Below, one piece after another: positions 3,051 to 38,700 of a stretch of 64,000 bases of DNA. The notes beneath the pieces are model-generated. The model was not told the origin of the DNA, made no database searches, and worked only from the letters and a program-made list of their open reading frames with translations. The DNA comes from Siniperca chuatsi (lineage: Eukaryota > Chordata > Actinopteri > Centrarchiformes > Sinipercidae), in the NCBI RefSeq assembly GCF_020085105.1, contig NC_058046.1, positions 17,694,675-17,758,674 of the forward strand, given 5' to 3'. A program made the translations under genes and the position numbers. Numbering within the stretch: the stretch's first letter is position 1; each line of letters begins with the position of its first letter.

Positions 3051-5748
3051 TGAAAACACAAAATATACTAGTGCCCTTTATATTTTAATGAAGAAGAAAA
3101 GCCAACATCTTCAGAAAACAACTTTTATTTATATTTTGTTCACATGAAGAGCAACACAGTTTCAAAAGCATCTGCAGCATTTCATCCCAGTGCAAAACTA
3201 AGACAATCTGATTGGGTTTACTGCACATGTAGTACTCTACTACAATCCTCTCATCAGACCGGCCACATCATGGATTCAACAACTTTGACTGAACCCTGTA
3301 CCTGTATAACATCAGCAACTCTTGTCTCTGAAAGCTTATTGCAACTGAGTTCACATGAATCAGTTTTCCAACCAAAACATGGTAGAAAAACAAAGCCCTA
3401 GAGCCTCAATAAAGCTGATTAATTAATCTGATTGCTGGAAGCTGGAGAAAAGAGTCCTCAACTGATGACACTTTTTCACAATAAAACAATGTGATCCACA
3501 ATTAGCCAGGACATAAAAGTATAAGATGTGTAATACATTATGACAATATCTGTGAAACTATGATGGACTGGATGGAATAAGTAAATGGCAATACTGTTGA
3601 TAAGCTCCAGACAGATCTAAACTGCAATGAGGTCCTTAAAAGTAAAGTCTGACACACTCATTACTACTTTCTTTTCTCCCCAGTTTGGAATGCACAATCC
3701 TCTGTACTGTGCTCCATTATATTGCTAACCCTCATTGTTAACCTGGGGAGGGTGTAGACAGCCATGCCTTTGATACACATGGTGTCTCTTGGTGTTTTTT
3801 CACGCGCCGGGCTTCGCTTTGTCTGGTCCCCTCCTGGATCCAACCCCTCCTTACAGCCACTTTGACCAAACAGGAATCACTAGAGCAGCAACAAACACAG
3901 GACTCCTTAAAAAAGGTTTCCCACCCAGTGCAGGGCCAATTATGTTGGAACTGGAACGCACGACCGAGCCGGGGGTAACCCAGATCTCGCGTGTCGCCTT
4001 TGTGACACACTTTGGTATTCTTTTGAACAGAAAATCCTGTGACGAAGAGGCTTCAGAAGAACATAATATGACAACCAAAAACAGAGATGCAAGTCTCATG
4101 ACGATGTTAGGGATGTCCAAAGAAAATGGCTAAATCTGCAGTATATTTACTCAGTTATCCTGAATATCATGACAGCGATGGAGTGGATAAGTAAGCAGTA
4201 CTGCTTTAAATAAAGCTCAAGATGAGTGTACAACTGTATTTAAATAAAATCTTGGAACAAAAGTTGGGGAAACATGTTTAGAAATTCTCTCAATAAATAG
4301 CTAGGCTACTCTTCATTCTCAGCAAAACGGCCAGTTAACATTTGAGTAACTTTCAACCTTCTGTATTTTTATTTGGCTGATGAGCAACAGCTTACTGGAC
4401 AGATCAGTCATGCCCAATATAGATGTTCTTCTATACACTTTGTATCTTCAATATGCATATTAGCCCTTAAAACACAACAACATTCATCAGCAAATGACCT
4501 CCCTGGGGTGGCCTAAATCAAGACATACAGTAAAAGTATTTGACCAAGACTCTTGATCAATTCTATGTATACACATTTCCTCTTTACACTCTATATACAT
4601 AACACAAAGCCAATCTTAAAATGTTAAAAGTCAAGATGTTTAAAACAGTAAATCTAAAATTTACAAACACACAAGAGTTAAAGAATGAGATTGTACAGTG
4701 ACTGCACTGCAGGCTGAAAGCTATCAAAATAAAGCTTGATCCGAGCTAAACCGGGTTTATGACTGGTAGAGAGAGAAAGAAAGAAAAAATTACATTTGGC
4801 TCCAGTGTGCACTGCCTGCTCTCACCTAAGACACATTGGTTGTTGATTTAAACCTGCACTGTTGTGCAGTACGCCATCTACTATACACAGTGGGAAGGTT
4901 TTTCAGTACATTCAATTGATGCCAACACAAGTTTGGTATTTCAAGCTATCAATCAATCAACCAATTTTCGAGCCAAACCATGACTAATATAGTAAATGTT
5001 TTAGGTTGCATGAGTAACTGGAGCTCAGAATGGCAGACAGCTATTGTTCCTACACAGAAATAGGTTAGTTTTAACCTGGGAACCAGACGAATCTGCCAAG
5101 CTCACGTTTCATCTGCTCTGGCAGATATAATACGCATTTGCGAATTAGTCTGGGTTAGTTTAATGCTAAGAATAAATCCATCTCTCTAGTACCTGTAATT
5201 TCAACGTCTCTTCGCTGAGGAATCCCTGACAGCTGCATCTACATAATTATATCCGATTGTTTAGAGAAAGTCTAGGAATGACTGACAGTACATAAATAGA
5301 ATGTTATGTTGACATTCTTCATACCTGCTCTTTCGAAGTGGCCATTACACAGGTCATACAGTTAAGCGCCTGAGAGCAGGCTGAGCGAAAGGAGTGTGGG
5401 AGAAGCATGATTGTCTGCTCAGGCATGAGGTTTAGATGAGAGCTGCAGAGGAGAGGTTTGGTCGACAGCATTAAGTGTGAGGAGTGTGTGTTTGCATCTG
5501 ACAACTCCCTGTCAGACACACAATCAGAGCCACCCTGAGCTAGCAAATACAACTCACAGGACCGATCTCAGAAAATCAAACACCTTGTCCACCCAGGTAG
5601 AGCACAACCTCTGGCTTTGATTATTGCTCTGGCCTGGATAAAGGGAGTTGGAGAGACACAGTCCTACAATAGTGCAAACACTGCTGTTGTCTTGACGACA
5701 CGCCCCGGTTGCCTGTTAGTGGGGCGGAGACTGGATGGAGCGCCTGTA

Positions 5749-8700
5749 TTAGAGCCATTTTCGGAGTGTAGACAGGTTCTTGTCCATCCAGCGCTGGTTC
5801 AACCTGATGGTTTCCAAAGCTTCCTGCACGCTTCTCATCTGGGAGCCGCGCTCCTTCAGACCGGAGAAGAAACCCTGCACCTGCACAACACACACAAACA
5901 CACATTGTGGTGTTGGCCAGATCAGACAACACACTAAAAGCATTGTGTAAACAGTTAACATATCCACACAAACAAGTGCACAGACCCTCAAATACGCTGC
6001 AGCATAAATGTATTCTGTTAGAAATAAAAGCATTAACAACATACTTGATCAAGGTGTGCCTGTGTGGAGAACTGGGAGGTGGCAGACTTGATGATTGTCT
6101 GGATGGCAAAGGAGCCCACAGGGAACCTACAGCCAAAAACACAAAAGCACAGATATTGTTTCATCTTTTCATTTTTATGTGAAATAATCTTAATATGTAT
6201 TCTCAGTGATAACATGTTTGAAGCTGACAGGTACCACTTACTTATCTATGAGGCGGTCCCAGTTCTCTTGTATAAAATCCCAGACAAACAGGTAGCCAGC
6301 GAAGCCTTTACATACAGTGCTGATGACCAAAGGCAACTCCTGTGTCTGGATGATGTCCCCCTTCAGACCTGCCTTCAGAATCCTAGACAGACCGTGATAA
6401 GTGTTCTGTTTAAATGCTGTTTAGTGCATAAACAACATAACACTCACTTTGTCACTTCCATACAGCATGAGAGTTATGGCAAGAAAACAGTGCCGATTTA
6501 GTAACTGAAGCTCTCGACTGTAATCACAGTAACCAAGATGAATAAAACAATATTAACTGAATACTAAACATGGTAATGGTAACACATTTTTTTCTATGTA
6601 CAATACAGTAATATGATGAGGATGGCACCAAAGCATATGAAATCATGACGTATTGGAGTAGGAGAAAATTTCTCAATTATGGGGGAAAATGTGTCTTTGT
6701 GATCTCTATGAGTTAACATGGGCCAGTTCGGGAGCCATACATCAAAAATGTATTATTTCTTTTACATAATGACACATTTTGGTGGTCACTGAAAAACAGA
6801 CAAAAACAGGTGCAACACTGTTGATTCTGCAAATTGTATCTGTTGCACAAAATGATCTGCGACTTGACTCAAACCGACGGGATCAGACCGGAGAAGAAAC
6901 CCTGCACCTGCACAACACACACAAACACACATTGTGGTGTTGGCCAGATCAGACAACACACTAAAAGCATTGTGTAAACAGTTAACATATCCACACAAAC
7001 AAGTGCACAGACCCTCAAATACGCTGCAGCATAAATGTATTCTGTTAGAAATAAAAGCATTAACAACATACTTGATCAAGGTGTGCCTGTGTGGAGAACT
7101 GGGAGGTGGCAGACTTGATGATTGTCTGGATGGCAAAGGAGCCATCTTTGTCACCTCAAGATGAGTCCATGTTTGGTTATTTTCAAGTGTAATGTATTAA
7201 TTAATTATTAATGTATTGGTTGGATTTTGCCTCTCAGTGGACTTCACCTGAGAGCAAAATGCTTTGAACGCTTAAAACATCGCTGCTGTGTTCCGCATTG
7301 GTTTCAAGTCATGTTTCAATAAAAGTTATTTTACTTAGCACAAGTGCATTGGATTCTCCTCTCTTTCAGCTTTTAAAATGAAATTGACGTGATCAGTTGA
7401 ATATATGCTTAACAAATCATCAGTGGGGAAGGAAAGACAGTGATGCTTGATCCTAGCCAGAAGCAAACACAAACACTTACCATACTATACGCCGTGCGTC
7501 CTGAGTGGATGCTAGGCCCTGTAGCATTTTTCGTTTGTCTGCATCATAGGTGGCATTTCTGTACATGTTGAGCAAAGTCAACCAGTCTTCGGTTGACTGA
7601 GCAGCCACAGTGAATACAACTTTCTGCAGATCGCCTGAGATCCTACAGAAATATATAAAGACACAAAGTCTTTATATATGCACCAAATTTCAGTTTACTT
7701 TCTACAACTCAAATGTCAGATACCAGTTCAATCAAGTCACATTCCCCCATCCCTAAATTTGCTATCTCTAAAAAGCCAAAAAAATATACGCTATACGTAC
7801 CCTAAGGTCCCATTGGCATACTGTTTGAACAGGGCTTTTGCTTGCTGAGTGCAGTTTTCTTCATTCAGGCTACAGGCCGTCCCCAGCAGGGCTGAGCGCA
7901 GCTCCTGTTTCGACACACTCTCTTCCTCTTCCCATGTTTGTTTGTCCATCAGAGAACCAAATTGATGCAGAATATAATTCTGTCATATGCAAGAAAAATA
8001 ATCATGATTATATTAGTACACAGAAACACTACACTCAGTTAAACAGGTCACAAGAATACTTAATCTTACAAAATGACTTGAATTTTTCACAGACTTAGGA
8101 TGTTAGCTTGTATCTTAGATACCCTGATGCAACAATAACTTGTAACTAAAACGCACCAACATTTTAACTTCTTGATAAAAAATTGTAATTTCATGTGTTT
8201 TTGTTGAACATATGAAGTATTAGTGTGCATTTTGTGATTTTGTGAAATTGATGTATTTTTAATAGTGTAGTTGATTTAAAGATAGATTATACATGTAGGT
8301 AAGGTGTGAGTCTGTGATCAGTAATGGGAAAAGAATCGCTTTAGCTTTAAATTTAAGGACTTCTGAGTCAAGGTTGTGTCTGGTAAAATTCAAGAACTCA
8401 AAATTGGCATATTTGAAATGTAATTATTACTTACTGACTTTATGTTACTGTTAAATGTACCACCTTATCATAATTCCCGCATCTAAAGCATGCTGACAAA
8501 TTTCAGCAATATAAATTAAGCACTTTATAGTGCACATTGATTTTTAAAAACTTATTTTTTACTTTTGCTGATTTTCAAGACTATAGATATTATGGATGTG
8601 TTTCTGTGTATGTGTATCTTTATTCACAAAATTTATCGTGACCTAAATTTCTTAACCGAAGTGAGTGAGTGTGTGTATGTTTATGTACCTTCATGCGGGC

Positions 8701-25600: not shown

Positions 25601-28277
25601 AAAATGTGTTTTTAGAAGAGACTTAAACAAAGACACTGACTCAGACAACCTAATTTCTTCGGGCAAGTTGTTCCAGAGCCTCGGGGCCCTGATAGCAAAA
25701 GCTCTGTCCCCCTTAGTTTTCATCCTGGACTCAGGAACAGACAGGAGACCCCTGCCCGAAGATCTCAAACTACGTGAAGGTTCATAAGGATTACAAGGTC
25801 TAAAATATAGTCTGGAGCCAGGCCATGAAGAGCCTTAAAAGTAATCAATAAGATCTTAAAATCAATCCTAAAACAAACAGGGAGCCATTGTAAAGAGGAT
25901 AAAACAGGTGTGATGTGGTTGTACCTCTTGGTCCTGGCTAACAGCCTAGCAGCTGAGTTCTGTACAGTCTGCAGTCGTGTCAAAGTTTTTTGATTGAGAC
26001 AAGTGAACAGGCTGTTACAATAATCAAGGCGCTAGGAGATAAAAGCATGCACAATAGTTTCTGCATCACTAAAATTTTAAATAGATCATATTTTTGCAAT
26101 ATTTCTGAGGTGATAAAAACATGATTGGACAAGCTTAGTAATATGTTGCTCAAAACATAAATTGCTATCAAACAGGACACCAAGATTTCTTGCAACAGGC
26201 TTGATATGTTGTGACAGGTTACCAGTAGATGGCAGTATTTGTTTAGTGATGTGTTGGGGCCCAATAACAAGGATTTCAGTTTTATTTGAGTTGAGCTGAA
26301 GAAAATTTATCGACATCCAATTTTTTATGTTAGACAGGCAGTCCTGCAGAGAACTAAGCGTACTAAGGTCAGTGGGCTTGACAGGGAGGTACAACTGTGT
26401 GTCATCCGCATAACAATGAAAAGAAATACCATGTCTGCGGATGACATCACCCAAGGAAAGCATGTATAAGGAGAACAATATTGGTCCCAGAATTGAACCT
26501 TGAGGCACACTATACTTGATATGGGAAAAGGATGACATGAAGTTATTAATGCTGACACAGAATTTCCTATTGGACAGATAAGATGAGAACCAGTCTAGTG
26601 CAGTGCCAGATATGCTCACCCAGTGCCTTAGTCTATCTAAAAGAATGCCATGTCCAACAGCACAAGAACTGATCACATATCTGTGTCTGCATTCATTAAA
26701 AGGTCATTGGTGACTTTGAGAAGGGCTGTCTCAGAGCTGTGGTGTTGACGAAAGCCAGATTGGAACTTTTCTAAGCTATTATTGTTTTCCGCAGCAGCAA
26801 GAAGCTGTTTAGATACAAGTTTTTTGAGATTCTTCAAAATAAAAGGCAATTTGGAGATTGGGCGATAGTTCTCCAGGAGGGTGGGATCAAGCCCAGGTTT
26901 TTTTAGGACTGGCTGGACACAAGCTGTTTTAAAGTAATCTGGGAAGCAGCCAGTAGGGGGTTAGGGGGGCAATAAATAATTGCAAATATGACCGGGAGGG
27001 GGCCACCAAGTTTAAACATGAGCACTTCAAAGGAGGAAAAATCATTGCAAGCTATGAGGTTACACTTTAAATGCTTCCTATAGACAGTAACAAGGCCCCC
27101 ACCTCGACCACAGACCCTAGGGCGACTAAAGCAGTCAAAATCAGGATCACAATTCAGCTAGCTGACTGTGCTGCTTCAGATTTGAGGTTGAGAGTGGAGG
27201 TAAGGTTCTGCATATATGCAACACTCACCACAGGCATGTTGGACAAAGAAATGTACTCTGGACTCCTCCTGATCCGTACAGAGAAATTGGCTTTGAAGTT
27301 TGGCTCATCGAAACAAGGGAATGCCATCCGAGCACTTGTGGGCTCAAAGTGAGTTGAAGCTAAGGTTCTGAAAAGAGACATTAGCAGATACTTTTTATTG
27401 TATTGTATTGCCAATGGACTAGTTGGAACCTCCCTGTATATGTAGGATATTTTACTAAGCTTGCTGTGAAACAGTCTATCTGGTCTTACTTAGTCTCTCC
27501 TGTGCTGGTTCTGTAGGTGCTTTTATAGAACCCATAGAAGCCTTCTGCAAGTTCTGCCCCAAATTCAATATACAGAAAGTATTTGTGCCCACTGCTGAGC
27601 ACTCTGGGAGAGAAAATGCCAATCTGCTCATGGGAAGGGTTATGAAGAACTGGAAGAACCTATGAAGAGAAAAGCAGGATATATTTAAATATTTCCATTT
27701 TTTATTCATTCATTATTCATTTAATGCTAAGTGAATAAGAAATGAAGAGAGCATGGGTCCAATGTAAGAAACAATGATAAATAACCTGTAGCTCAGCTAC
27801 CTGGTCAGACAGATGTGCGCGATCCTGGTCCAATATGGTGGCCTTGGAGATCTGCAGACCCTTGCTGTGTAATACAACCCAGTTTGTATTGTTCTGGACA
27901 TCAATCTGTATCTGTACTGAGCCAGTGAAACTGAGACTTGTGAGGTTGGGGTGCAGGAGTAGGTGGTAGTGAAGAGGAATGATGTACCTAAGATAAAGAA
28001 ATACGTCTTGTTTATTAATCAGCGACTGAAAAACAGAGGTCCACCAATTTTCATGTCAATTTCCTGTATGTGGGTATAGTGTAAAACAAAACTAGTGTGA
28101 AGGGTACCTTGGCAGGCGAAGACGGCTCCAAGGGAAGGACAGATTACCAGTATCCAAAAAAGACTGTGCTCCTGCGGGGTGAGGAGGGCTTGACGCTGGT
28201 TGTGAACTCTGAGTGGGCTGAGACCCAACCAGAGACATGTGCAATAGAGACAGCACTAACAGCCTCACTAAGACCAT
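19656..28277 (-). CDS. erap2: endoplasmic reticulum aminopeptidase 2-like, complete, 20 coding exons
   Basis: M1 zinc aminopeptidase that trims N-terminally extended peptides in the ER before MHC class I loading. Coding exons: 28277-28108, 27987-27801, 27659-27490, 27367-27229, 25344-25210, 25104-24984, 24879-24725, 24614-24501, 24391-24260, 23864-23733, 22890-22822, 22684-22509, 22306-22227, 22123-21940, 21783-21627, 21522-21338, 21149-20988, 20798-20658, 20323-20242, 19802-19656. Phases join into 945 aa (human ERAP2 960). A hydrophobic leader spans 1-19. GAMEN is 318-322, HELAH 354-358, Glu377 the third zinc ligand and Tyr439 the catalytic Tyr; all sit 16 residues before the human ERAP2 positions. 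ERAP2 rather than ERAP1 is favoured by the ETSLLFDP..SSxSDKLWVT block, the LNSSRPIS block and the C-x10-C loop at 487-498. A 5' noncoding segment begins at 28301 after an acceptor. Head-to-tail with lnpep downstream, as in mammals. An erap1-type paralogue assignment is possible but less likely. Confidence 0.93.
25400..27140 (-). mobile_element. 5'-truncated, internally deleted LINE (CR1/L2/Rex1-like) in erap2 intron 4
   Basis: Reading the minus strand gives a small piece of endonuclease near 27,100, then a jump straight into reverse transcriptase (the block PISKLP, then [13 protein letters not shown] and the catalytic YADD at 26401-26412), then the C-terminal region ending with [18 protein letters not shown] near 25,650. 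A 3' tail resembling other fish LINE tails ends in an (ATA)n-type microsatellite at about 25,403-25,420. Frameshifts and stops break the frame and most of the endonuclease is missing, so it is dead. It is inserted in the same orientation as erap2. Confidence 0.85.
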
Positions 28278-28301
28278 TGTAGAGGAAATGTCCTTCAACC
28301 A
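28278..28301 (-). other. erap2 5' untranslated part of first coding exon
   Basis: A pyrimidine-rich acceptor ending at 28302 precedes the 24 bases before the erap2 ATG. An intron in the 5' UTR is therefore likely, and I do not extend the protein into the in-frame ATG near 28440. Possible donors of an upstream noncoding exon on the minus strand are GTAAGTAT with the exon ending at 29129, GTAAAG with the exon ending at 29199 and GTGAGA near 28627. I could not decide between them from sequence alone. Confidence 0.55.
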
Positions 28302-28449
28302 CTGAATTGAAAAAAAAGCAAACAAACGTGTGACAGGCTGACAGCTAGTATTGAACTTCACATCCCAAACATGAGGAGCGATGAAGGACCACCTGATGTG
28401 AGTGTTGAATGCCTGCCCGGATGATCTGTCCAGATGTCGCACATCAGAA

Positions 28450-29680
28450 TATGGCTCATGAATCTAAAATGTCTCAGGACCTTTCTTCTTAAACCTGCAA
28501 GATATTAGAGCAGGATTAAAAACACACCACATACAGTACATCTCTTCATAATACAACATTTATACCACTGTTCTTCCTGTGTTCTAGTAGTCCAATCAAA
28601 AATGTTAAAATTTACTGTGTCTCACCTATAGAGAACTAATCCGGCCAGGTTTATGGTTGTGGTTATGGTTTCAGTTAATATTTCAACAAAATCACTCATA
28701 TAGCTCATAATGTAGCAAACTCCATCTTATTTCACCTGTTTATATCTACGAGGTAAAGGTGTTTATGTTTGCAAGGTGACAGTTTTGGACTTTGCAAGCA
28801 TCACACATGAATACTGTTGAGTGAGCAGTTCATTCTGGCAAACTGAGCTGTGTTTAAGGGCCTCAACCACGACACATCTCAGCCTGAAGGAGACACAAAC
28901 ATGTGACAAGCAACCCACATGATTTTCCATGCGGACAAAACAAGATGAGGACACAGCTATAACTGTAAGGTGACAACAGCTGCATGAGCATAACTGCAGT
29001 TCAAATCAGGCTGCATAGGCACAAGGCAGTAGTTGTACTGTGCCATGCTGATTATGTTAGTGACAACAATCCGCAAGTTCACCAGTAATGGAACTAATTG
29101 TTATAAAGATTGCAGGAGTAATACTTACTTGTCTTGTATCTGCTTTAGAGTCATGTTTTAACAGAAATAAATTAGCCGCAAATGCCAAAAAGCTTTACCT
29201 CGATCATTTAGGCTTCATCATACTTCCTTCATGTCCCTGCTGTTGAGTTTCACTTTCTCTTTTAAGCTCCCGCCCACTGCTGAGGCAAAAAACCCAATTG
29301 TCTTTGTGTGTGTGTGTGCGTGTGTGTGTGTGCGTGTGTGTGTGTGTGTGAGTGAGAGAGAGAGCGAGAGAGAGAGAGACAATGTAGCCTCACATGTTAA
29401 CTATGATAAATTATGTCTTATGTAATGTCTCTTTAGTGTATATGCGTGTGTGTGTGTGTGCAGGTGTTTAATGTTGTTGGTGTCTAATGTTCTGGTTGTG
29501 TTGATATCATCAGTTTCTTACCTCAGATCTAACAGCCGTAACAGGTGTTTCTCCAGTTGTTCAAATTAGTTTTCACTGACTTTTTTTTCACGACTGTCCA
29601 CATTACTGTCCAGTCCTCACTTTTCTTCCTCTTTAGAAATGCAGATAAAGCCTCATTTGTGCAAGAGCTCACACTGTCCC
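28450..29680. other. intergenic and 5' UTR region between erap2 and the divergent pTalpha-like gene
   Basis: No coding exon was found. The segment contains candidate erap2 leader exons, the ISRE promoter block, and a compound microsatellite of (GT)n followed by (GA)n at about 29305-29375, with a second short GT run at 29443-29460. Confidence 0.5.
29240..29280 (-). promoter_or_regulatory. putative erap2 core promoter with ISRE
   Basis: AGTTTCACTTTCTC at 29246-29259 fits the interferon-stimulated response element consensus AGTTTCNNTTTCNY. Next to it, on the minus strand, are a TATA-like CTTAAAAG (about 29259-29266) and a GC box GGGCGGG (about 29267-29276). They lie upstream of the candidate erap2 5' UTR donors. 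Mammalian ERAP genes are interferon-inducible, so the position makes sense. The consensus match is seen directly; promoter function is inferred. Confidence 0.6.
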
Positions 29681-29689
29681 CCTCACACT

Positions 29690-29765
29690 GGTGTGTTGGG
29701 GTCGCGGTAAGGGGGCGATCCATTGTTAATATAAGGTCACAACAATGAGACATGTCAATCCCCCA
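29690..29765 (+). promoter_or_regulatory. possible promoter of the pTalpha-like gene
   Basis: A GC-rich stretch (29698-29720) is followed by TATAAGG at 29730-29736, roughly 180 bases before the chosen start codon. If transcription begins near 29760, the in-frame ATG at 29768 would be only a few bases from the cap and would be skipped. That favours the ATG at 29909. No experimental support; low certainty. Confidence 0.35.
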
Positions 29766-29908
29766 CAATGCAGTGCTCCTGGCATAGCCAAATGGAATGC
29801 CCCCATTTCACACACTCATATCTACACAAGGTGCACAAACTCACACACACACAAACAAGGCAGCAATCACTGAAACTACTGTTTACTACTACTGAAACTA
29901 AAGCAGAC

Positions 29909-31501
29909 ATGACGGAGCCATCCAGGGGTCTATTTTACCTTCCTATCATTTATTTATGGACAGGTAAGAGCTTTTAATTTCTAATACATGATTATGATGT
30001 AGCGTATATTGTGAATCAATAGGAAAGAAAATTCAACATCACTGTTTGGTGAAAATCATAAGTGTCTAAAATGTCAACTTTTCAGAGGGACTATTCGGTT
30101 TTGTTTAGTGCCTGACCACCATTTTTGAATTTAATCAGTGGCTGTTGAAAGTCAAGTAAAGTCAAGTTGATATTATTTTAATAGCCCAAAATCACAGATT
30201 TGCCTCAAAGAGCTTTGAAATCTGTACAACATACTAACCCTCTCTTTAGGTTTGTATATTATCAATGGTGGCAGCCTGTAAATGAGTACTGACCCCGTCT
30301 ACTGGAGTTACTACATCAAAATCACAACGATTGATTAGTTTTTTAAGCACAAAAACAAATGGTTGACATATTTGGAGTTGTATCTGGCAATAATGTTAAA
30401 TGCATTAAGGATTTTATAAACTGTTATATGTATTTAATTTGATGTCCCAATTCTGTCCTTACAGGCTAAACAGCAAACATGTAATTTTTTAAAACAAAAT
30501 GCCTCATATTTACAACTACTATATACATTTTCTGTACTTCATTGCATTATTGTGTTTGAACCAGTGCATAGCCTCATGTTAGAGAGCCGCAGACCAAGAT
30601 TTCTGCCCATCTTAAATTTACATCTTCTCTCTTTGTTAAAATGTAATCCTCCTCATGTTGTCCTCCATCATCTTTTAGGAGGGGTAGAGGGTGATGTGCT
30701 CGCATCTCTGGCCCCTCCAGTCCACCTGTCAGGGGAAAGGCTGGGCTGGACCCTGCTGGTCTGTATGGTAAGTGACTTCAGAAGAGGGCACCTAGAGGTC
30801 AGCTGGAGGTCACCATCAGAAGGCCCCATGTCCAGCTCTCCATACAGCATTGCTGTAAATAGGAAGCATCGTGGCCATGGCGCTGTGGCAATCATCACAG
30901 TGGCGACTAGTGACTGGCCGTCGTACAGTTGTTCTGTGAGTCACAGAAGACACCCAAAAGTCATCAGGAGACACCTCACCACCTCACCAGGTAGACCTGT
31001 AGCTGATCATGATACCAGAATCTTGAATTTGGTTTCTGTTATTTCTACTCACAAATAGAGGTAACTTACTTTTTATCTTACACTTTTAATACATTTGTAT
31101 AATTTCAGATCATCAAGACAACATCTGCAATGGATATGAACAGATAGAAGGTACATTTTAATTGTTTATAAACAATTAAAAAATCCCTGTGGTTCATACA
31201 GATGTTGTTCCTTATGTTGCTCTGTGTGGTTTGATCTCCAGATGTTGATGTATGGACAAACACAGTGGTTGTTCTGGTTATGAGGCTGCTTCTCATGAAG
31301 ATCATCGTCTTTAACACTTTGATGACCACTTACGTTGTTATTAAGTGGTAAGAGGATGAGTCTGTGTGCCTTATTTGGAATGAAGTGTCATCAATGAGAA
31401 AATAACCAGGTTTTCACTCACCTTCATTGTGTGTCTAACAGTGTGAAAATGTGTTTTACCTAATATATTGTGGTTGTAACAGTGTATTTTGACCTTTCAG
31501 A
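29909..31501 (+). CDS. ptcra: pre-T-cell receptor alpha-like protein (leader, Ig C1 domain, connecting peptide, TCR-alpha-type transmembrane helix)
   Basis: Coding exons are 29909-29963, 30679-30990, 31109-31150, 31242-31347 and base 31501, which completes a TGA stop across the last junction; 171 aa. Exon 1 encodes a short hydrophobic leader. Exon 2 is one C1-set Ig domain: Cys47, Trp61 in VSW, and YSCSVSH (101-107, the YxCxVxH signature) with Cys103 pairing Cys47. It begins with a SLAPP motif (28-32) that I recall at the start of mammalian pTalpha. Exon 3 is a 14-residue connecting peptide with one Cys (129), suited to an interchain disulphide. Exon 4 is a membrane helix with Arg151-LLLM-Lys156-IIVFN, the same Arg-x4-Lys spacing as TCR alpha and pTalpha. 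There is no V or J segment and essentially no cytoplasmic tail. Leader, Ig, short Cys peptide, then TM is the PTCRA exon plan. Alternatives are a stand-alone TRAC-like constant gene or a new CD3-associated IgSF receptor. That it is a gene is well supported; the symbol is an inference. Confidence 0.8.
30160..30245. repeat. short retroelement 3'-end fragment in intron 1 of the pTalpha-like gene
   Basis: AAGTCAAGTTGATATTAT followed by TAGCCCAAAATCACAGATTT and AAATCTGTACAACAT resembles the 3' end common to fish LINE/SINE families. It is only about 85 bp long and so inert. Confidence 0.5.
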
Positions 31502-32165
31502 TGGTTGGAAACGGAGGGCTTCTGATGCACCATGTGCCCTTGAAAAGAAAACGAACCCAGAGAGGGGAACTCTTTCTTCTCTGAAGTCTACACAGTGAGG
31601 ATTTCTGCACTGGAAGAAGCTGAGCGTAGTACATGCTTGTGGTTGGCTTTATGATAATGGTTTTACACTGAGTTTTGGATTGGAATCTCATGGATTCAGT
31701 GGGAAATGATCTACTGTCAGGATCACAGGAGTAACAGGTCTCAAATGCTACAAATCTTGAGTCGCGCCTTTTTCAGCCGTTTGTCATTTGACATCCCAGG
31801 TGTTGCCGACTGTGGCAGTTGAAGACAGATTGTGTTTGTGAGGCCAAACCTGGTATCTGATTGAAACCTAACCTCAGACAGATGGGTTAGTGCACATATT
31901 GTTGTATATGTGTTTGTGTATGTTTGTGAGAAGATCTGTGTGTATTCTTACTCATCTTTAATTTTTAATTCCTTGAATTACTAAAAAGATTGTGGGGGAA
32001 ATTTAGCTTAATGTTTTTGGAAGCTTACACATAAACATAATTTCACATTTTTAGTATCTTGTTTTGCTTTTTTATAAGCCTGTGAATGTGACATTAGTAA
32101 ACAGGAAGTAAGCTTGGACCATTTTGACTTTATTGTTTTTAAAATAAAACACTTGCACACAGATT
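31502..32165 (+). other. 3' untranslated exon and polyA signal of the pTalpha-like gene
   Basis: An acceptor at 31499-31500 opens a final exon that is noncoding after its first base. AATAAA at 32143-32148 is the first good polyadenylation signal. A last exon made almost entirely of 3' UTR is also the arrangement of the mammalian TRAC gene. Confidence 0.6.
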
Positions 32166-33802: not shown

Positions 33803-35564
33803 TTACATCAATGCCACGCTCAGAGCACACAGCAGGAGCAGAGCGAGCCGTTTGATAGGTTGAGAATTAGAGTGTAAGGTGGATGTGGCAGAGCCGCGGG
33901 GGTAGATCCTCCATCTATCCCGGTGTGGGTGGAGGCTCTCCATGTCTTTCAGGGCGCTGTATGCTGCCACTGTGAAGTTAGCATCCCCGGTGGTCAGGAG
34001 ATCAAACACGCAAGAGTGGAAGTAAATGTCCTGCACCTCCAGCTGATCCCTGCAGCGTTCCTTCGCCCCCTCCACGCCGAAAACCTGCATGGCAGCGTAG
34101 GGGGATGCTTGTGTCTGTGAAGAGTAGCTGGGCCGACGTAGCTGCTGGAGCTGTAGGCCAAGCGCAGGAGGGGAGAGGGGCAGGGGAAGATACCCTGCTT
34201 GGTCAATGCGTTCTCCGCTCGGGCAGCCGTTCAGACAGAGCTGCAGGTCCTGGGTGGCATCGTAGGCCTGAGCCAGCTCTTCTGGGATCCGCACTGCCAG
34301 GGTCAGGTAGCGGCCCAGCTGGCGAACGATTACAGTTACACCAATGTAGCCAGCATGCAGCTCCACGTGGCGCCCCGGGCTGCGCTCAGAGATCCACAGA
34401 GCCCGGACCTTCCCAGTTGCACCGTCTGCACCAGCAGAAATGTGGATGGGGTCTCCACTGCTCACGGTTCCATCATCAAAGGCAGCAGGGAGGTTGTCTG
34501 TGACGGCCTGGTAGACCCTCTGGTCTGTACAACCCTCATAGGGCTTGAAGATGATGGTGATCTACAGAGAGGGAAAGACGGAGCATAATGGAGAGACATT
34601 TTAAGTTTAAAGTGTGTACAATGAATGACAATTTCAAAATGCAAGTATTGATATACAGTTTACAGTTACAGTAGTCAATTCAATAGATATAGGACAAACA
34701 ACTTTCATCAAGGAAATGAGTAGAGCTGTAACAATAAATCGATTAATAATTAGTCAATTGAAAGAAAATGAATCTGCAACTATTCAGCCACTAAAGTGTG
34801 ATGATTTGCTGCTTTTCTTTGTCATATATGATAGTCAATGAAATATATTTCACTTTGGGCTCTGAGAAATTGTGATGGTCACAATTGTTTCACATTTTAC
34901 AAACTAACGGATTAATCAATTAATTGAAAAAATAATCAGCAAATTAATCGCTAATGAAAATAATCTGTAGTTGCAGTCCCAATCAATTTATTAGTTGATC
35001 AACAGAAATAAATTGGCAGCTACTTTGATAACCGATTTTCAATCAAAAAAATTCTCTGGTGAACATTTGCTGCTTTTCTGTTGTTGCAAATTTTGAATCT
35101 TTTTGTTGGATAAAATTGAAAAATGCACTTTCACTATTTTCTGACGTTTTATAGACTAGACCATTAATCAATTAATCAAGAAAAAAATTACCAGTTTAGT
35201 TGATAAGGAAAATTATCAATGGTTGCAGCCCTAGATATAAGGCAAAAAGGTCTCTCTCTCACACAAACACTCACAAATATTAACATTCACCCATTACACA
35301 GGTTATTGACTCTCATCACACTACATTTGCAAAATGACTAAATGAGTTTTTAACAAGTTGTAATTTGACACAGCTATGCAAACATACTGACACACACACA
35401 CACACACAGGGCTCCAGTGGTGAGTGGACGCAGTGCTGGATACAGGGTGTGGTGTGAGCATTACGGTTAGCACTAGCATCATAGTTCCGGTGAAAGACTG
35501 CTTTGTTCACATGACAGCCATGAGGAATGAGGCCTGGCAGGCCATTAAGCCTGGAGGGCTGTTA

Positions 35565-35634
<70 letters not shown>

Positions 35635-35735
35635 GAGTGTGTGTGTCCCTAATAATCGTGACTAATAACTTGCCCCACCTCTGACACAAGGTCAAACCTT
35701 CAACTCCACAGTGTAGCAACCCTACTGTTTGCTTA

Positions 35736-35775
<40 letters not shown>

Positions 35776-38700
35776 TTCTGCCAGCGTGTGTATGACTAAG
35801 TGTATGCATGGGTGTGTATGTGTTTTAATAATTAAAGCTATTGACTAAGCTAGAAATGGCAGATCATCGGGGGAAACACCAGCATAGCTTCTTTAACAAC
35901 ACAAAGATCACCTTGTGTGGTTCGTCATCCATTCAGTGGTGTGTGTGCGTGTGTCTTTTTTTGTCATTAAGGGATAAGGACCATTAACACACATAGTGCT
36001 TTAAGCTGAGTGCCATTTATGAGACACACACGTGCACACAAATACTTGCAAACACACACATAAGTAAACAGTGGGTCCTTTCACACATCTCACTCCATGT
36101 TATTAAAGAGAGCGAAAAGTAGAGCAAGTAGAGCAAGGGTCTTTTCCAGCCTCACACTGATAAGATTTCTTACTCTGAGGCACAGAAAAGCAACTTACAC
36201 ACTCAAACTCTCCAGCACACACACATAAATAAACTAGATTACACCAGCTGCTCTCACTTAGGAAACTCTTTCAGCCTTAATAACAGCAATTAAGAAAAGC
36301 CCATTTTTCTCTGCTCCCCCCTTTATAACAGTTCTTTTCTCACCTTATTGGTTGCTGTGGCACTGGAGCCTGGTACCACGGGAACATTAGTGACCTGTAC
36401 TGACAGATAATCATTATCGATGAGAGGCCACGCCCCCTCCACCTTACAAGTCTGGAAGCTGTCCTTAAATGTCCTCAGGTGTGGGTCCCCGAACAGCCCA
36501 CAGAACAGGTACGCAGGCCGGGAGTGGCTGTGGCTGTGAGTGTGAGAGTGTGTGTGTGCGTGCACGTGGGAGTGTGTGTGGGCGTGCTGGGTGCGACTGT
36601 GGTAGTTACAGGGCTCGTGGACCACCTCGGGGTGCGTGGAGGAAGTGGGCCCGTCTCTGGAGCAATTCCTCTGGCTCATGAGATCGGAGATGCCCAGCAC
36701 AGCCGAGTGGAAGACCAGGTTCCCCCGGCAGGACTTGGCCGTCCTCTGGGTGCAGGCCGAGTACGCACGTAAAGCCTTGCAAAACTCAGTGTGAAAGCCA
36801 TCCACGGCCGGCGTCAGGTGGGAAGTCAGGGAGACAAAGTCGGTGGTGCACTTCTGGATACGGCACTGAGGGGTGGCCACCTGGCACTGACCTGGAGAGG
36901 ACAGAAAGAGAGAGATGCAGAAATATTGTTAGCAAAGTGATATTATTACAGGAACAGTAATAGTGATAGGTGACCAGCTATAACAGCCTTAAATATTATC
37001 ACACGTCTGATAATGTAGGTATGTACTACACTGAGAGTTGGCTTTAACACACAGAAGACAGAAGGTTACTGTTTGTAGGCAGCTTTGAACTTAAACACAC
37101 AATGCTACCAGCCTGTTACAATCCAACCTAATAAAATTGGAAAAAGAACCAGCCGCTGGTTGAAAGTCTTGATCAATCAGCAGTGCCGCTCTGCAAGTGT
37201 AATAAACCAAAGAGCAGCCAGAGAGAAAAGATAAAGAGCGTTTTCCCACAAGGAGTGAGATAATACTGCTTATATAGCCAGGGAGCACATAACACATAGA
37301 GTATTATAGACAAAGAGCGCAAGACAATACAAGGTGTGCTATGCATATAAACACACTACCGTGACTTTGTGAAGCTTCTAATGAAACTCTGTGGTCATTT
37401 ACAAGGGCATTTGTGATCTTGTGTAGCTTTAGCAGAGAGAATACACAATCAAAAATGTACAATTATTAAATATAACTTTATTGTTTGTTTACAGCTATAA
37501 CTATGAGCACCAGAGGAAATGCATTCAGAAGACTGATTATTCTGTCTTGTATACCCATTAGGAACAAATTTCTTGGTCAGAAATTGTCCCTGATGTTTTA
37601 TCTATTGCTACATTTTCTGAATGTAACAAGGGTCAAACCGGCCTTTTATATCATAGATCATCAGAGAGAGAGGGAGTTAGAGCGAGAGAGAGATTAGAGA
37701 CCAGACCTAATGCATCAGTCACATCATGCTCCTATTAGATTAGGCCAGAAAGAGGCTCTGCAGTGTATGGGCAGCTGCACACACACACACAAACACAAAT
37801 AGCTGTCTCAGAAAGAATGCTGGTTGTACTTCTGTTAAATGCACACAGTCAGTGATCTTCAGTTGGTGGTATGATCTCCCAAAAAGCCAAGCAAAAGCAG
37901 AAAGTACATGTTTCTTACTGAAATCAGCAGATTCCTTTAATGTGACACCAACACTAAACAACCATAAGTTGCCACTAACACAATAACACACACAAGCAAA
38001 CAGCACATTCCAGCTCTTCTGTGTACGTTTATGTGATTTTGGGGCATGAAGGAGTCAGGCATCACCATTTGGGGGCAGTAGTGCTCTGAGTTTTATAAAT
38101 CAGTGTGCAGGTACAGACCCCCACTCACACCGCGCTTCAGAATCTCTCTCCTGCCTGTTAAATACTGACACCAACCCACAGACACACACACACAGGCTGC
38201 CTTCCATGCCAACCACCACTGTACAGACGGTTTGAGTACTGAGGACACATTGTGTCTTTGCACCAACAGCCTCCTTCTCTCCCTCCTATCTGCCCTGCAG
38301 TACCTAAATGCTGCTCTCAATCTAATCAGAGTGGGTTTATTCTCTTTCGAAGGATATCAGAATCATGAGCTGCTCTAAAAAAACACACAAAAGCACTCAT
38401 TCACTCACATTTTCCCAGCAGGGTGACGCAGCGAGAAGGGAGTCGACCCTGTAACTGAAGGACTCAGGTTCAAACCACTGACTTATATAAAGCTTAAAAT
38501 CTTTCTAACAACAAGCTACTTCTAAAGTTTCACACCAGTTCCCATTGTGTTGCTCTATAGCTGACCCTGCACTCTTCCCTCCCTGTGAATGAATCAATAT
38601 TAAAGCACAATTTTGATATTTTGGTTGTTCAATGCTCCCCTTTTGTGCAGCCGTCCTCTTAAGGGTGCCTCTCTAAGCATGCATAGCTGTACATTCAAAA

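Follow-up and report, generated by a model that had tools for sequence, protein, structure and literature searches.

The pre-T-cell receptor alpha chain (pTalpha) of mammals is encoded by PTCRA, which has the plan leader, Ig domain, connecting peptide of ~15 residues with a Cys, and transmembrane (TM) segment, and whose Ig domain begins with a SLAPP motif. Passages in the literature state that fish or teleosts have no known pTalpha (PMC3570791, PMC6747487, PMC8559430, PMC10464911, and PMC11759298 of January 2025), that PTCRA arose in amniotes (PMC9614664), and that Xenopus, zebrafish, and axolotl lack pTalpha, which is called an amniote innovation (PMC12529555, September 2025). For medaka, the corresponding passage of PMC11759298 describes the timing of beta-selection as not completely identified and remarks that teleosts are not known to have the gene. 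The pre-TCR comes up in the matching passages of PMC7824517 and PMC5339814 without a fish pTalpha. No announcement of a fish pTalpha was found among the titles and abstract openings of the matches listed, in a collection that leaves preprints and most subscription papers outside its coverage. As far as these passages of 2013–2025 go, they agree with the original prediction in that fish were held to lack pTalpha.

Here we describe a gene of this plan in a fish genome of 718.8 Mb. It lies on contig C5, in the window, by which we mean the whole 64-kb stretch of DNA that was analysed (Table 1). The gene is real as described: its reading frame, splice sites, and exon map confirm the predicted complete gene with a leader, a 312-bp Ig exon, a 42-bp exon with one Cys, and a TM exon. 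GT–AG borders were found on all four introns, introns 1–3 are in phase 1, and the joined exons encode 171 aa with no stop inside the frame, ending in a TGA stop codon that is split over the exon 4/5 junction and takes its final base from exon 5. The role of exon 1 as a signal peptide was assigned by eye. The SLAPP motif, claimed for the start of the Ig domain, lies close to the beginning of the Ig exon; the predicted gene end at 32150 is right because AATAAA lies at 32143. In the TM helix, the Arg and Lys are five residues apart and are followed by FNTLMT; there is almost no cytoplasmic tail, and no N-glycosylation motif was found in the 171-aa protein. Over the 2 kb preceding the ATG (27909–29908), there are five E-box-like sites (28390, 28733, 28977, 29461, and 29542), which we do not use as evidence, and TGGGAA does not occur.

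Table 1. Features of the candidate gene, its surroundings, and the TRAC gene of the same genome (window positions unless another locus is named)
Feature	Position	Strand	Description
Two tandem M1 aminopeptidase genes	about 5600–28463	−	GAMENWG, HELAHQ-type, PCFDEP, and LRLPR motifs twice each
Frames with a common stretch	5624–6160 and 6789–7196	−	common stretch of ~100 residues; local duplication close to where one aminopeptidase gene ends
Reverse-transcriptase frame	26089–26703	−	RVT_1, 55.3 bits; flanked by aminopeptidase exons; probable LINE-type element
Candidate exon 1	29909–29963	+	55 bp; ATG and leader MTEPSRGLFYLPIIYLWT, then split Gly codon; donor GTAAGA, phase 1
Candidate exon 2	30679–30990	+	312 bp; single C1-set Ig domain; Cys 47 and Cys 103 with a Trp between
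SLAPP motif	30705–30719	+	close to the Ig exon start; also in human pTalpha
Candidate exon 3	31109–31150	+	42 bp; connecting peptide with one Cys (Cys 129, codon 31126–31128)
Candidate exon 4	31242–31347	+	106 bp; transmembrane helix VVVLVMRLLLMKIIVFNTLMTTYVVIK; Arg 31283–31285, Lys 31298–31300; stop codon starts at exon end
Candidate exon 5	31501–32165	+	last base of stop, 3′ UTR, AATAAA at 32143; 3′ end approximate, inferred
RGM-family gene	33806–36928	−	right of candidate; Pfam RGM_N and RGM_C
RIOK2	about +82 to +85 kb		right of candidate, beyond the RGM-family gene
TRAC of the same genome	L016, about 3350–4250 (G000 C13)	−	Ig exon strongly reduced, 201 bp, no Trp

To place the candidate among known families, we compared it with profiles, single sequences, and a tree. 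The Pfam C1-set family scores 24.8 bits with the full protein (cut-off 21) and 26.5 bits with the Ig exon alone, lower than with any of the nine control domains that match C1-set (31.4–109.4). With Pfam PF15028 PTCRA, the Ig exon alone reaches 12.9 bits (E 0.096, residues 1–47 on profile positions 1–48) and misses the cut-off of 23.1; the full protein brings up no PTCRA match in Pfam, and human PTCRA scores 237.3. None of the 10 control constant domains (IGLC2, IGKC, IgG CH1, three from the IgH cluster of the same genome, TRBC, TRGC, TRDC, and the same genome's TRAC) lists PF15028 at E ≤ 10. The connecting peptide and TM alone list no Pfam family. The search of the genome with PF15028 gave no match, a null that is uninformative because the control genomes also gave 0/14. 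An HMM of human and mouse pTalpha (the human sequence checked against PDB 3of6_D) ranks the candidate first of 14 proteins with 14.7 bits, followed by IGLC2 with 11.9, and its match covers positions 2–150. BLASTP of the N-terminal part against human pTalpha gives 13/32 identical residues, with an E of 0.004 for that single comparison. The candidate was not listed when human pTalpha was searched against the genome (six candidates scored), which returned three other places with an IgM-type exon first (E 1.81). The best tree groups the candidate with pTalpha at a support of 80/69, with long branches, and grouping it with TRAC/TRDC instead costs only 0.58 log-likelihood and is not rejected (p 0.287). 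The tree does not settle orthology because this support is too weak.

The C-terminal part of the candidate is closer to TRAC. At the 25 aligned TM positions, the candidate is identical to the same genome's TRAC in 15, to human TRAC in 10, to human pTalpha in 9, to human TRDC in 8, and to mouse pTalpha in 7, and a TRAC HMM on the connecting peptide and TM gives 25.1 bits for the candidate and 4.2 for human pTalpha. The same genome's TRAC, whose TM exon was located using a human TRDC sequence as the query, lies on contig C13 with exons of 201, 63, and 108 bp. The candidate has no listed match to the TRAC Ig family PF09291 at E ≤ 10, which is a weak test because the Ig part of the genome's TRAC also lists no family; searching the genome with PF09291 gave no convincing TRAC (best E 3.99). 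The Ig domain of the candidate has its highest pairwise scores with IGLC2 (90) and the same genome's IgM (89), followed by IgG CH1 (65), IgK (62), IgE (57), pTalpha (49–51), and TRBC (49), and scores only 21 (Z −0.3) with the Ig part of the genome's TRAC.

The candidate lies between the M1 aminopeptidase genes, which show Pfam M1 in two of their frames and are ERAP/LNPEP-like by eye, and the RGM-family gene. We take the aminopeptidase–RGM–RIOK2 block to be the counterpart of the human 5q15 neighbourhood (ERAP/LNPEP, RIOK2, and RGMB). A passage in PMC9614664 places amniote PTCRA between RPL7L1 or POLR1B on one side and CNPY3 on the other. A search of the 264 kb surrounding the candidate gave no match at E ≤ 1 to CNPY3, RPL7L1, or human PTCRA, and one 29-residue match to GNMT (E 0.051). 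The best CNPY3 match in the genome is on a different contig, C22, and no pTalpha was found in the ~4 kb upstream of its first exon in a partial test (TM and LAPP motifs, long frames by eye), which returned one chance motif match. Synteny does not support orthology to amniote PTCRA, while relocation of the gene remains compatible with these data.

Recombination signals were scanned over the whole 64-kb window, with shuffled sequence as the chance level and a 50-kb part of the TRA locus in this genome as a comparison. Five weak places in the window gave 6 rows, where shuffled sequence averaged 0.9. None of these rows lies within 29–33 kb around the candidate, compared to 25 rows in the 50 kb of the TRA locus, in line with the prediction of a gene with no V or J segment. 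A search of the genome with the candidate protein (12 candidates scored) listed 10 places, of which the strong matches are the candidate's own four exons. The six others, five on C21 and one on C32 (27–29% identity, E 0.048–2.55), resemble IgH constant exons, C-mu and then C-delta-like, as named by eye, an arrangement in keeping with a teleost genome. No near copy is among the listed matches, and only near copies are excluded thereby because the TRAC TM exon was missing from the same listing. The genome contains TRBC-like genes, the best two on C15 at 43% identity, and the candidate is absent from the best 80 places of that TRBC search. No relative was confirmed in one scan each of viral_contigs and genome_contigs, which are not collections of fish, and NCBIfam, a library for bacterial and archaeal proteins, gave no match.

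Taken together, the candidate is most probably the fish pTalpha. What stands of the original identification is the anatomy, the SLAPP motif, the weak but specific PTCRA signal in Pfam, and the best tree. Orthology is not shown: the Pfam cut-off is missed, the TRAC/TRDC grouping is not rejected, the TM is nearer to TRAC, the Ig domain is nearer to IgL and IgM, and CNPY3 is elsewhere. Of the checks that had been proposed, the pTalpha HMM puts the candidate first, the TRAC HMM recognizes its connecting peptide and TM, and the tree joins it to pTalpha without rejecting the alternative. Whether the gene is a true ortholog of amniote PTCRA in a ray-finned fish is, in our view, evenly poised. A convergent fish invention, in which a duplicated TRAC-type connecting-peptide/TM cassette was combined with an IgL/IgM-like C1 exon and a leader, would produce a similar gene that is not a PTCRA ortholog. 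The TM identity, the TRAC HMM score, the Ig scores with IGLC2 and IgM, the neighbourhood unlike that of amniote PTCRA, and the small cost of the TRAC/TRDC grouping all point in this direction, and we consider such an origin a distinct possibility, somewhat short of an even chance. Against it are the SLAPP motif near the Ig exon start, the PTCRA signal missing from all 10 controls, and the first rank with the pTalpha HMM. Moreover, human pTalpha itself shows the same mixture, its Ig domain scoring 61 with IGLC2, 53 with the fish IgM, 49 with the candidate, and 33 with TRAC. Convergence is a rival to kinship and not to mechanism, because its product would serve as a surrogate alpha chain all the same.

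An Arg/Lys TM suits any alpha/delta-type partner of CD3, and is therefore compatible with a TCR-alpha-like chain that has another partner or job (another TCR chain, or mature T cells) and no role in beta-selection. We regard this as unlikely, as a single C1 domain without V and with a free Cys is the pTalpha plan, and TRBC-like partner genes are present in the genome. The exon plan and phase also resemble those of TRAC, as would be expected if it were a displaced or decayed TRAC constant gene with splicing to V-J, or a non-functional remnant. TRAC consists of constant exons spliced to a rearranged V-J inside the TRA locus, and this is not the arrangement found here: the candidate has its own leader exon and start codon, a full C1 domain compared to the reduced one of the genome's TRAC, and no recombination signal nearby, while that TRAC sits on C13. 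As the splice sites and frame are intact, with neither a broken site nor an internal stop, and no recombination signal is near, a pseudogene or displaced TRAC is improbable and holds only a very small share of our expectation.

The reading of the candidate as a pTalpha also suggests a function. Judged by its sequence, the intact gene probably encodes a surrogate chain of TCR-alpha type that does not rearrange and functions in the manner of pTalpha. Such a chain would be expressed in thymocytes in which TCR beta is rearranged and TCR alpha is not yet. Its Ig domain would pack on C-beta, Cys 129 could make the interchain disulfide with TCR beta, and the Arg and Lys of the TM would bring in the dimers of CD3 and zeta. 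This receptor without a V domain may then give the beta-selection signal, leading to proliferation and the start of TCR-alpha rearrangement, as with amniote pTalpha. If the gene is a true ortholog, the pre-TCR checkpoint would be older than the divergence between ray-finned fish and tetrapods, and the reported absence of pTalpha in amphibians and fish would reflect loss, relocation, or missed detection and not an amniote invention. Either the pre-TCR would date back to bony vertebrates, or the candidate would reveal a second invention of the same device. An intact surrogate alpha-chain gene in a fish offers a testable candidate and marker for the timing of beta-selection, not completely identified according to the medaka passage noted above (PMC11759298).

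Among the known systems, the candidate has the plan of pTalpha, which is non-rearranging and consists of a leader, one Ig domain, a short Cys peptide, and an alpha-type TM. The candidate and human pTalpha are 25% identical over the alignment and have the V-C-x-V, W-x-S, and R-L-L-L-x-K positions in common. The human pTalpha TM has FD-x-LLT, whereas the candidate has FN-x-LMT, like TRAC, and the candidate differs from amniote PTCRA in its neighbourhood and in being almost without a cytoplasmic tail. The genome's TRAC has a TM exon of 108 bp compared to 106 bp in the candidate, with the same entry phase, but its Ig exon is reduced to 201 bp and lacks the Trp, and it sits amid many recombination signals, in contrast to the candidate with its full C1 domain and own leader exon. 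The C1 domains of IGLC and IgM are the closest pairwise relatives of the candidate Ig domain, but they come without a TCR-type TM.
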